Of a stretch of DNA of 64,000 bases, positions 37,220 to 57,118 are shown in pieces (position 1 is the stretch's first letter; each line of letters starts with the position of its first letter). The translations under genes were made by a program, and so were the position numbers. The stretch covers positions 62,001 to 126,000 of the forward strand of contig NZ_NFIV01000003.1 of the NCBI RefSeq assembly GCF_002159555.1. Direction: 5' to 3'. The stretch is from Muribaculum sp. An289. Lineage in GTDB: Bacteria; Bacteroidota; Bacteroidia; Bacteroidales; UBA932. A model generated the notes under the pieces. That model did no database searches and was not told the DNA's origin. It saw only the letters and a list, made by a program, of their open reading frames with translations.

Positions 37220-37312
37220 TAATTTTGCCTTCGGCAGAAATACTGTAGCGCCTCGGCAAAGCAAATAAATTTGCTCTGTTCTCGGCTTCTGCGTATATTT
37301 TTCATATATTTG
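37220..37312 (+). repeat. Diverged copy of the promoter-bearing repeat upstream of the hemerythrin gene
   Basis: Starts with a -7-like TAATTTTG (37220-37227), then a 26-nt segment with CGGCAGAAATACTG that matches the linker of the three copies before tpiA. A CGGCA...CTCGGCTTCTGCGTATATTT core follows (37254-37300). The hairpin in its middle is shorter than in the tpiA copies (GCAAAT-AA-ATTTGC, perfect 6-bp stem). A final TATATTTG at 37305-37312 is well placed to start the hemerythrin transcript near 37319. Confidence 0.75.
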
Positions 37313-37333: not shown

Positions 37334-38041
37334 ATGGCAAACAATAAAGACATGGGATTCCTTACAATCAAGCACAGCAGCAAAATGGCCGACATCCTTG
37401 ACAAGGATGTATTCATCCTGCCGCTTCTTTATCATTTCGGCATTGACCTCGGTTTCGGGGAGGCCTCTGTGGAGGACGTGTGCTTGAAATACGGTATCAA
37501 ACCGGAGCTTTTCATTACGATGTGCCGGGTCTATGCGCTCAAGGGCTATGTCCCTGACTGCTCCGCCTTTGACAAGGACGACCTCGGTACTGTTTCCAGA
37601 TACATACACCAGTCGCACGTATATTATCTTAACGAAGCGTTGCCAGAACTTGACAGGCAGTTTGCCGAAGTCCTCGGTTGCTATGAAGAGGTACACAGGA
37701 AAGTTCTGAGCAAGTTCTATTCGGACTACAGGACGGAGGTGGACAAGCATTTCGAGTATGAGGAAAAGACCGTGCTGCCGTATATAGGGAAGCTGTTGGC
37801 CGGCGATACGGACGGGGCCTATTCGATAGCGGATTTCGAAGACAACCACAGCGACATAGAGGAAAATCTGTACGATTTGAGGAATATCATAGTCAAGTAT
37901 CTTCCGGGAGACGCCCCTTACCGTATGAGGTACGGGCTGCTTACGGATATCATAAGGTTCGGGAACGAGCTGGACAAACATACTTTTATCGAAAACAGGA
38001 TTCTCGTTCCGATAGCATTGAAAATAGAGAAAAATGGATAA
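37334..38041 (+). CDS. Hemerythrin-domain di-iron protein (YtfE/ScdA-like)
   Basis: 235 residues from the ATG at 37334. The N-terminal 75 residues resemble the ScdA N-terminal domain in layout (LPLLYHFGIDLGFGEAS) but without its Cys pair. A four-helix hemerythrin domain follows with likely iron ligands His95, His121, His139, Glu143, His172, His216 and Glu220 (VDKHFEYEE, DNHSDIE, LDKHTFIENRIL). Relatives repair iron-sulfur clusters or react with nitric oxide or oxygen. It overlaps the downstream regulator gene by 8 nt, so both are made together. The upstream frame reads into a repeat and is not coding. Confidence 0.87.
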   Translation: MANNKDMGFLTIKHSSKMADILDKDVFILPLLYHFGIDLGFGEASVEDVCLKYGIKPELFITMCRVYALKGYVPDCSAFDKDDLGTVSRYIHQSHVYYLNEALPELDRQFAEVLGCYEEVHRKVLSKFYSDYRTEVDKHFEYEEKTVLPYIGKLLAGDTDGAYSIADFEDNHSDIEENLYDLRNIIVKYLPGDAPYRMRYGLLTDIIRFGNELDKHTFIENRILVPIALKIEKNG

Positions 38042-54811: not shown

Positions 54812-56023
54812 ATGAGTGTAAATATACAACAAATCTTATCAAAAAACGCATTGAACATGAGAAGATCTTCAATCAGGGATCTTCTTAGCGTTATCACGAG
54901 CCCCGATGTCATATCTTTCGGAGGCGGTTTTCCTAATGCCGAGACTTTCCCTGTCGAGGATTTGAAACAGATCATGATGGATATCATGAACGAATGTCCT
55001 GCCAAGGCGTTGCAGTACAGCACGACCGAGGGACATCCGGGACTCCGCAAGGAACTTGCAAAGATGGTAAAGCGTACGCAGGGCGTTGATGTCGATATCA
55101 AGAACATCCTCATCACTACGGCTTCTCAGCAGGCTCTCGACCTTGTTGCAAGGATTTTCGTCGATCCGGGCGATACTGTTCTTTGCGAATTGCCTTCTTA
55201 TCTCGGAGCCCTTCAGGCCATTTATGCAGAGCAGGGCGAACCTGTCGGCTTCAAGAGCTACGATGAAATGGACAAGGTCATAACCGACCTTACCGCGCAG
55301 GGCCGCAAGCCTAAGTATATCTACCTCGTTCCTGACTTCAGGAATCCTTCCGGAACGACCATGACTCTCGAAGAAAGGAAACTGGCTCTCGAGGTTGCCC
55401 GCAAACACGATATGATTATTATAGAGGACAGCCCTTACAGGGATATCAGATTCGAAGGCGAACCTGTACCTACAATCCTCAGCCTCGATACAGACGGCCG
55501 TGTTGTACAGCTGGGTACTTTCTCCAAGACTTTCGTTCCAGGCTTCCGTATAGGTTGGGTAATCGGTCCGGACGAAGTAATCAACCGTCTGATTGTCGGC
55601 AAACAGTGCTCCGACCTCTGTACACCTATCATGTCGCAGATGATTGCGGAAAGATATCTCGCTTCAGGACATTTCGACAAGAATCTTGTAAACATCACAA
55701 GCCTTTACCGCGTGAAGAAGTCCAAGATGATAGAAGCCCTCGAACGCTACATGCCTAAAGGCGTTACCTGGACCAATCCGGAAGGCGGACTGTTCCTTCT
55801 CGTTTCACTTCCTGAAGGCTTGAGCACCCTGGAACTGTTCAATATCGCCATCAAGGAAAACGTCGCATTCGTGCTCGGTACTTCATTCTATTGTGATGGC
55901 GGCGGACAGAACTCGATGAGGCTCAACTTCTCGTATGCTTCGGACGAAAAGATAGACGAAGGCATTTGCAGGCTTGCCAATGCAGTGAAGAAACTGTACG
56001 AGGAAAAAGGTTACAGAGCCTGA
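54812..56023 (+). CDS. PLP-dependent aminotransferase, class I/II fold
   Basis: 403 residues. The N-terminal VISFGGGFPNAETFP and the PLP lysine in TFSKTFVPGFRIGW are typical of the LysN/aromatic aminotransferase group related to the enzyme part of MocR regulators. Phosphate- and substrate-binding residues appear in TTASQQALDL and NPSGTTM. It transfers an amino group between an amino acid and a 2-oxo acid; the substrate could be 2-aminoadipate, an aromatic or a branched-chain amino acid. It is a single gene with its own promoter and terminator. Confidence 0.88.
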   Translation: MSVNIQQILSKNALNMRRSSIRDLLSVITSPDVISFGGGFPNAETFPVEDLKQIMMDIMNECPAKALQYSTTEGHPGLRKELAKMVKRTQGVDVDIKNILITTASQQALDLVARIFVDPGDTVLCELPSYLGALQAIYAEQGEPVGFKSYDEMDKVITDLTAQGRKPKYIYLVPDFRNPSGTTMTLEERKLALEVARKHDMIIIEDSPYRDIRFEGEPVPTILSLDTDGRVVQLGTFSKTFVPGFRIGWVIGPDEVINRLIVGKQCSDLCTPIMSQMIAERYLASGHFDKNLVNITSLYRVKKSKMIEALERYMPKGVTWTNPEGGLFLLVSLPEGLSTLELFNIAIKENVAFVLGTSFYCDGGGQNSMRLNFSYASDEKIDEGICRLANAVKKLYEEKGYRA

Positions 56024-56057
56024 GGGTTTGTCTTAAAGGAAAATAATAATTAGGGGG

Positions 56058-56088
56058 AGGCGGCTGAATTCCAGCCGTCTTCTTTTTT
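56058..56088 (+). terminator. Terminator of the aminotransferase gene
   Basis: 9-bp stem with core CGGCTG (56061-56066) / CAGCCG (56072-56077), loop AATTC, followed by a T-rich run ending in six T. It lies directly before the promoter-bearing repeats. Confidence 0.88.
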
Positions 56089-56095
56089 ATCCTGC

Positions 56096-56321
56096 CGGCA
56101 TAGCAATTTGAATAAATTCATTTGCTCTGCTCTCGGCTTCTGCGTATATTTGGCCTGACGGCCAGAAATACTGTTGCGCCTCGGCATAGCAATTTGAATA
56201 AATTCATTTGCTCTGCTCTCGGCTTCTGCGTATATTTGCCTGCGGCAGAAATACTGTTGCGCCTCGGCATAGCAATTTGAATAAATTCATTTGCTCTGCT
56301 CTCGGCTTCTGCGTATATTTG
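56096..56321 (+). repeat. Three tandem copies of a promoter-bearing repeat upstream of tpiA
   Basis: Three 57-nt cores, 56096-56152, 56182-56238 and 56265-56321, start CGGCATAGCAATTTGAAT and end CTTCTGCGTATATTTG. They are nearly identical and are joined by 29- and 26-nt linkers (unit length 86 and 83). Each core ends in TATATTTG, an exact -7 element, and holds an AT-rich hairpin around TGAATAAATTCA. TTCTGC before the -7 element and GCAGAA after it form an inverted repeat around the second promoter. The third element would start tpiA transcription near 56328. Confidence 0.9.
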
Positions 56322-56362
56322 CATCGGAATCAATATATGGTTTTAATCAATATAGTTTTGTC

Positions 56363-57118
56363 ATGAGGAAGAAAATCGTTGCGGGCAACTGGAAGATGAA
56401 CACGACAGTTCCGGAAGGTGTGGAACTTGCGAAAAATGTATTGGCGGGAATTTCCGAAAAGCCGTCGGATGTTGAACTCATACTCGGCGTGCCGTTTACT
56501 CATATAACAAAGGTGGCGGATGTCATTTCGGGCAGCGGCATCGGTCTTGCCGCACAGAACTGTGCTGACCGGGAAAGCGGAGCATATACGGGTGAAGTCT
56601 CGGCTGCCATGCTGAGGTCGGCAGGTAGCGGCTATGTCATATTGGGCCATTCCGAAAGGCGGCAATATTATGGTGAAACGGACGAAAAGCTCGTGCAGAA
56701 GATGGCTCTGGCCATGAAAGAAGGACTGATACCTATTCTCTGTGTCGGCGAAACCATTGCTGAAAGGGAAGCCGGAAAACATTTCAGTGTCGTGGACGGA
56801 CAGATAAGGAATGTGCTTTATACTGTCCCGCAGCAGTCGGTTTCAAATGTAATAGTGGCATACGAGCCGGTATGGGCCATAGGGACCGGAAAGACCGCTA
56901 CGGTCGATCAGGCTCAGGAAATGCACAGACATATACGTGCAACCATTGCGGAAAAGTTCGCATCTGCCGCCGACAGTGTATCCATACTGTACGGAGGGAG
57001 CTGCAAGCCTTCGAATGCAAAGGAACTTTTTGCCTGCAAGGACATAGACGGAGGTCTGATCGGAGGTGCTTCCCTTAAAGCAGAAGATTTCCTGTCGATA
57101 GCAAAATCATTCAGATAA
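56363..57118 (+). CDS. tpiA: Triosephosphate isomerase
   Basis: 251 residues from the ATG at 56363 (MRKKIVAGNWKMN). The catalytic Lys is in NWKMN, the His in GHSERR, the Glu in AYEPVWAIGTGKTA, and the phosphate loop in GLIGGASL. It interconverts dihydroxyacetone phosphate and glyceraldehyde 3-phosphate in glycolysis. The open frame extends upstream into the repeats, which is not coding. prmA follows 9 nt after the stop. Confidence 0.97.
   Translation: MRKKIVAGNWKMNTTVPEGVELAKNVLAGISEKPSDVELILGVPFTHITKVADVISGSGIGLAAQNCADRESGAYTGEVSAAMLRSAGSGYVILGHSERRQYYGETDEKLVQKMALAMKEGLIPILCVGETIAEREAGKHFSVVDGQIRNVLYTVPQQSVSNVIVAYEPVWAIGTGKTATVDQAQEMHRHIRATIAEKFASAADSVSILYGGSCKPSNAKELFACKDIDGGLIGGASLKAEDFLSIAKSFR

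Follow-up and report, generated by a model that had tools for sequence, protein, structure and literature searches.

The window is a stretch of 64,000 nucleotides, C23:62001-126000 of the 2.32-Mb draft genome G000, which consists of 36 contigs. Upstream of tpiA it carries an array of three copies of a short repeat (window 56096-56321; Table 1). A repeat search and blastn bore out the first-pass annotation, which had called the 57-nt cores near-identical: the core is identical in each copy, and the repeat search gave the start-to-start spacings of 86 and 83 that had been claimed; by blastn, the 57 nt of copy 1 (C23:118096-118152, window 56096-56152) and copy 3 share 100% identity. The -7 element TATATTTG terminates every core, an AT-rich hairpin lies within each of the three copies, and TTCTGC and GCAGAA stand on either side of the second -7, all as annotated. 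These two arms are part of a second hairpin, which is built on the -7 itself. Folding energies gave modest support, with a z score of -3.2 for positions 56090-56180 and scores of -1.0 to -1.6 for the other four of five stretches. The array had also been placed correctly between a terminator and tpiA: by eye, a hairpin and then a T-run lie on its 5' side, and tpiA follows on its 3' side. The left edge of copy 1 falls inside the left arm of hairpin A. Judging from the sequence, each of the three -7 elements is a candidate for use by tpiA. No Rfam family matched the array credibly, the best scores being far below the gathering scores.

Table 1. Features of the tpiA array and of the second repeat locus in the window
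Feature	Position in window	Strand	Details
Second repeat locus, one complete unit	37220..37302	+	left flank TAATTTTG; right -7 altered to TATATTTT
Gene called 3' of the second locus	37334..38041	+	same strand as the unit
Probable intrinsic terminator, left boundary of the array	56056..56089	+	by eye; 3' of aminotransferase-like gene (54812-56023)
Copy 1, 5'-truncated	56096..56152	+	-7 TATATTTG 56145-56152; TTTG 56121-56124
Unit 2, complete	56145..56239	+	left -7 56145-56152; right -7 56231-56238; TTTG 56207-56210
Unit 2 hairpins		+	hairpin B with inverted -7 CAGAAATA 56163-56170; hairpin A 56178-56223
Unit 3, complete	56231..56322	+	left -7 common to unit 2; last -7 56314-56321
Unit 3 inner parts		+	inverted -7 56246-56253; hairpin A 56261-56306; TTTG 56290-56293
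tpiA	56363..57118	+	ATG at 56363; last -7 of the array ends 41 nt upstream of the ATG

The array belongs to a dispersed family. With the array as query, blastn gave 33 matches in G000 at E<=1e-3, one of which is the array itself, and this number rules out chance as its origin. Copy numbers are far apart between the sister species, with 41, 7 and 56 blastn matches for one 83-base query. The window holds a second family locus with one complete unit (Table 1), which scores 89.6 bits against our covariance model and lies outside its training set; unit 2 of the array scores 99.6 bits and is itself in the training set. Many copies have no left half, and the right ends are fixed while the 5' ends are ragged. 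The genes behind the copies often look like housekeeping genes, including tpiA and secA-, pgk-, dnaN-, purA- and purB-like genes, and both G000 and its sister species G002 have copies at tpiA and at ftsY-, cstA-, aspA- and sahH-like sites; all gene names except tpiA and the AbiE pair mentioned below were assigned by eye from translated starts.

We aligned 39 short-form units from 7 genomes. Such a unit is about 74-87 nt long and spans one -7 element to the next, with the -7 (TANNTTTG) at both borders, and longer units with a larger middle are also present. The order of parts is TANNTTTG, a stem, loop and stem ending in CAGAAATA, a linker, CCTCGG, a palindromic apex with TTTG, CTCTCGGCTTCTGCG and TATATTTG. 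Hairpin B is a short stem-loop with an inverted -7 at the end of its far arm, which is CAGAAATA in most units of the genus, and hairpin A has a variable palindromic apex with TTTG in its 3' arm. The 57-nt core, which had been taken as the element, is indeed part of a dispersed promoter-like repeat, but the real unit stretches from each -7 to the following one and goes into native -7 elements. Arms from the same unit paired better than swapped arms in 679 of 930 swaps for hairpin B and 789 of 992 for hairpin A (copies are related, so that copies and swaps do not count as independent events), and for neither hairpin did any of 1000 permutations come up to the observed mean. Within the genus the result was clear for hairpin A (own mean -9.30 versus -7.89 for the best permutation) and narrow for hairpin B (-5.96 versus -5.92 for the best of 1000 permutations). 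Examples of paired arms are TTTGACC/GGTCAG, TTTGCC/GGCAG and TTTGGCC/GGCCAG; three units of G002 (L153, L154 and L157) have TTTC in the apex instead of the expected TTTG. The inverted -7 tracks the -7 type of the lineage, with CAGAAATA accompanying TATNTTTG and, in another family, CGAAGATA accompanying TATCTTTG.

The copies point towards genes. Copies lying mostly inside genes, or without a gene downstream, had been named beforehand as what would speak against a promoter; in the stretches scanned within the genus, the next called gene downstream is on the same strand for 31/31 copies in G000, 57/59 in G002 and 5/5 in the sister species G001, or 93/95 in total. Six copies in this three-species count are without a called gene, and one intragenic match with 5 mismatches was set aside. 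The scan of G000 covered 20 stretches and the window and found 34 right ends, after one intragenic match with 7 mismatches had been dropped; it omits three places found by blastn (C12:199755, C34:31521 and C34:60305), and three partial blastn places (C12:184592, C36:16458 and C36:86476) have no right end. Some of the same-strand genes lie several hundred nucleotides off, in part because nearer short genes fall below the threshold of the caller. One of the two exceptions in G002 precedes a tRNA-Ser gene that points the same way. The other (L165, C94:9461) has no same-strand gene called behind its right end, and tRNA and Rfam searches there gave no match. One copy lies upstream of an FMN riboswitch.

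The excerpted text of PMC7366714 describes the sigma-ABfr promoter of Bacteroidota as having TTTG near -33 and TAnnTTTG at -7. We took 73 distinct right ends with up to 3 mismatches to the consensus, and TTTG ends exactly 20 nt 5' of the -7 in 68 of them and 24 nt 5' in one more. The reversed word, placed anywhere at 16-24 nt, occurred in 7/73. The right ends thus carry both elements of the sigma-ABfr type, TAnnTTTG at -7 and TTTG near -33. Each unit, like the promoter described there, has such a -7 (TATATTTG) at its end, and most right ends place TTTG 20 nt ahead of it, but here the signals sit in a dispersed repeat that forms two hairpins (PMC7366714, same excerpt). The -7 word alone is weak evidence, because in the window a sense TA..TTTG lies within 100 nt of 15 of the 48 called genes and an antisense one within 100 nt of 8; position and orientation carry the case. 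On these grounds the copies would be expected to drive transcription.

We searched G001 and G002 with the joined N-termini of the genes behind the repeats and then compared the upstream regions. Three sites, before a fabH-like gene, before an AraC-like gene and at L187, could be compared on both sides in an empty and a filled state, and each has one unit at a native -7 with a -7 on both sides. At the fabH-like gene, G001 and G002 have the empty site ..ACATATATTTGCCG.., and G000 has the same flank, one unit, TATATTTGC and the leader. At the AraC-like gene, G001 has the empty site ..GGGTATTTTTGCGGGC.., where in G000 a single unit stands between two copies of TATTTTTGC. L187 is empty in G000 (..GTTTTTATATATTTGCGCATT..) and in G001 reads TATATTTG, a unit beginning ACC, TATATTTG and CGCATT; because the left -7 is followed by the A of the element and the native C comes only after the right -7, the repeated segment here is the 8-nt -7 TATATTTG. 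The right side is equally clean at an adh-like gene, which has extra sequence on the left. Two-sided insertion is not visible in most copies because many of them lack the left half.

The wider comparison points the same way. We merged 82 rows into 76 gene/genome pairs of orthologs, which are not all independent since two empty genomes may share a gene; a native TANNTTTG lies at most 12 nt from the position of the repeat's -7 in 47 of these pairs, and none lies so near in 29. Permutation of positions among the pairs gave a mean of 21.0 and a maximum of 33 in 2000 trials, and the antisense and reversed words were found in 0/76 and 1/76 pairs, respectively. A perfect TANNTTTG stands at the left border of 14 of the 19 complete units that form a left edge, compared with 1/19 control windows, and the border differs from TANNTTTG in the other five (L010, cut by a contig end, was excluded from this set; L019 and L175 have more repeat to the left). 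The target-site duplication expected of a MITE is seen at the three precise insertions and in 11 of 13 comparable units, in which the left and right octamers are identical, including two TATTTTTG cases; the octamers differ in the remaining 2/13. Recombination between two identical -7 sites would give the same picture as a target-site duplication.

At tpiA itself, G001 has no repeat. A native promoter-like GTATTTTTGCA comes immediately after its terminator hairpin; in the alignment it falls on the array's last -7, and it lies 17 nt closer to the tpiA ATG than in G000 and 5 nt closer than in G002, where only the right half of the repeat is present upstream of the gene. The array is therefore not needed for a tpiA promoter, since the repeat-free G001 has a native -7 at nearly the same place. 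Among 80 named tpiA loci, whose best TpiA identity is 70%, no such core was found within 260 nt 5' of the gene (a few loci have less upstream DNA), and the covariance model gave one weak match (L118, E 0.003). The two linkers inside the array are unlike, GGCCTGACGGCC versus CCTGCGG, and both types, or close variants, recur elsewhere in G000. For these reasons the array more likely arose from different units inserted at -7 elements than by simple tandem duplication. The first-pass annotation had suggested amplification of a mobile or recombinogenic element; the dispersed repeat and its insertion at orthologous sites uphold the element, and the differing linkers fit simple amplification of one unit less well.

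We also asked how far the repeat extends within the order Bacteroidales, to which G000 was assigned on the strength of its best TpiA relatives, which come from uncultured members of that order. A strict pattern is present in 5/59 genomes of the family and a looser one in 18/295 genomes of the order, where several single matches look like chance. The covariance model, which was roughly calibrated and scored at most 15 candidates per genome, gave matches in 29/295 genomes and 18/184 genera of the order at E<=1e-3, with a single match in six genomes. Pattern matches in six further genomes are followed by a same-strand gene in 20/20 cases, up to 820 nt off, according to gene calls that used codon statistics trained on the window. 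For more distant matches of the model, a crude caller placed a same-strand ORF next in 17/23, an opposite one in 5 and none in 1, and 5/23 matches are themselves enclosed by one of these crude ORF calls; the orientation of copies is less consistent in distant genomes than in the genus. One distant genome, G276 (L284 and L285), has two copies within a larger dispersed repeat, in pieces of 212 and 107 nt that are 92% alike; this repeat contains a related hairpin unit and has no same-strand gene behind it by the crude caller.

Several other elements adjoin or interrupt the repeats. An AbiEi/AbiEii pair (type IV toxin-antitoxin) lies between the left and right halves of a repeat upstream of a MutS2-like gene (L021 3077-4885, G000 C36:86476-88284) and looks like an insertion into the repeat. 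We considered this 1.8-kb interval as an autonomous element and rejected it, since it holds the AbiEi/AbiEii pair and is read as such an insertion. At L020 (G000 C3:52531-53832), a long unit is interrupted by a gene that by eye resembles an IS30-type transposase, with GAAACATGCCAATG to either side. Repeats in L019 and L170 likewise border on the end word GTTGACTCTGCCC. A second dispersed palindromic repeat, GGGAAAGTGAA...CACTTTCC, is found in many of the same stretches (L013, L023, L026, L120, L171, the window and others), sometimes immediately next to the promoter repeats. The start of contig C31 and the end of contig C9 both fall inside the repeat, a repeat-driven assembly break, and comparison with G001 indicates that the two contigs probably adjoin.

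Taken together, these results make it likely that the array consists of three copies of a small, non-coding, promoter-carrying, MITE-like mobile repeat that inserts at the -7 element of existing promoters. A new unit would enter at the -7 of an existing promoter and leave the old -7 on its left, and the right end of the unit, with its own -7, would come to stand where the native -7 was, ahead of the unchanged leader. Together with this -7, the TTTG of the unit would provide a complete sigma-ABfr-type promoter for the gene, which would explain why copies point towards genes. Each insertion would leave two -7 elements, so that further units could insert alongside and build tandem arrays; we infer that arrays grow by such repeated insertion and that a dedicated recombinase or transposase moves the units. 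If selection acts on the promoter, the 5' half could decay, and this would explain the ragged left ends.

The main rival is passive copying between short homologies, by which promoter regions would spread without a dedicated enzyme: the short -7 elements and the hairpins that sites have in common would allow gene conversion or template switching, and selection for a good promoter would fix the right end while the 5' part decays. We regard this as possible, though doubtful. It accounts for fixed right ends with ragged 5' ends and for a short unit without an ORF, and it agrees with the searches of mobile DNA: blastn with the 92-base unit found nothing in phage and plasmid collections, and two consensus words had no exact occurrence in viral contigs. 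The -7 is also all that unit and target have in common at the compared sites. Against it, the three insertions comprise exactly one whole unit with a -7 on both sides, and the left half keeps its paired arms though the downstream promoter does not need it. RecA-dependent exchange requires a minimum homology much longer than 8 nt, and the shared octamer is far below it.

A bolder form of the preferred reading, insertion at -7 elements, seems rather unlikely to us as a whole. It proposes a promoter cassette system in which a dedicated recombinase or single-strand transposase would insert hairpin units some 80 nt long into the -7 of active promoters, a box that may be favoured for being melted in the open complex; the inverted target copy at the left end would fold onto the target, as a guide or a folded recombination site, and arrays would be stacks of exchangeable promoters across Bacteroidales. 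The attB sites recognised by the CTnDOT integrase have the form GTANNTTTGC, which would fit the target, and a tyrosine recombinase for sites that resemble GTANNTTTGC is a tentative candidate for the mobiliser. The literature searched contained 0 full-text occurrences of the GTANNTTTGC string and so gave no support for a link to CTnDOT.

We think it distinctly improbable that the repeat is a REP/RAYT-like element moved by a transposase of the Y1 (IS200/IS605) type, which would act on its hairpins as single strands, take the -7 as target and use CAGAAATA as a guide that pairs with it. IS200/IS605 elements use guide sequences, and the oriented insertion beside a fixed short target would suit such an enzyme, as would a left end that is able to fold onto the target and follows the -7 type of the lineage. 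G000 has three weak Y1 matches, but no repeat end lies within about 1.5 kb on each side of them (one side is cut by a contig end), and no PF01797 match at E<=1e-3 was obtained for two carriers, G011 (completeness listed as 95%) and G170 (99%); with these two results we set aside a Y1/RAYT mobiliser. The ends of the unit also lack a GTAG or CGTC tag. That the copies are not mobile at all, and are ancient conserved housekeeping promoters sharing sequence for a common regulator, is very improbable: many housekeeping-looking genes behind copies and several sites occupied in both G000 and G002 would suit this view, but the precise empty sites already contradict it, and the copy numbers of 41, 7 and 56, the native -7 often kept by repeat-less orthologs and the tandem arrays speak against it as well.

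If insertion at -7 elements is correct, the promoters of many genes in the order, including housekeeping genes, would be renewed by a small mobile unit that lands on the promoter's own -7 box and leaves promoter-like sequence behind. This would be a concrete and testable route for promoter turnover, with natural before/after pairs for measuring the effect of an inserted promoter, and it would explain why some hairpin repeats and some contig breaks occur in these genomes.

Among known systems, the repeat can be compared with putative mobile promoters, which were reportedly described by Matus-Garcia et al. in 2012 in 'Promoter propagation in prokaryotes'. The term denotes a promoter region that recurs almost unchanged ahead of non-homologous genes of the same genome. 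Our promoter-like repeat recurs in this way, and between relatives it is present or absent at orthologous genes. This earlier work is cited in the excerpted texts of PMC4596501 and PMC9208149. The repeat shares with putative mobile promoters near-identical promoter-like sequences ahead of unrelated genes and differs in being a defined unit with a -7 target on both sides, tandem arrays and covarying hairpins. We found no description of the family in the open-licence literature searched, and it is possible that it was listed earlier in mobile-promoter studies.

The repeat also resembles BrickBuilt, a MITE-like element of Porphyromonas gingivalis from the same order, in being intergenic, non-coding, repeat-built and promoter-bearing. 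As presented in the excerpt of PMC4596501, BrickBuilt differs in its terminal inverted repeats, which are like those of resident insertion sequences, its 23-nt repeats and its promoters in both directions. The short inverted pair GCAGAA/TTCTGC was the only feature like a terminal inverted repeat that we saw, and no autonomous parent element was recognised in the stretches examined round the copies. With REP elements and their RAYT transposases, as far as the excerpt of PMC3733652 describes them, the repeat has in common short, palindromic, dispersed units and arrays, but it has no GTAG/CGTC tag, lies before genes and occurs in two carriers without a Y1 match. Of the features by which REP/RAYT systems are recognised, the end tag was not found at the unit ends read, nor an associated Y1 transposase gene in G011, in G170 or through repeat ends round the three G000 matches. 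Integron cassettes have folded attC sites and form arrays; the repeat is like them in that its units are bounded by a repeated short site, can fold as single strands and form arrays, and unlike them in that it has no ORF and is about 80 nt long. By these tests the repeat does not pass as a REP/RAYT element; in behaviour it resembles a mobile promoter and in form a MITE.
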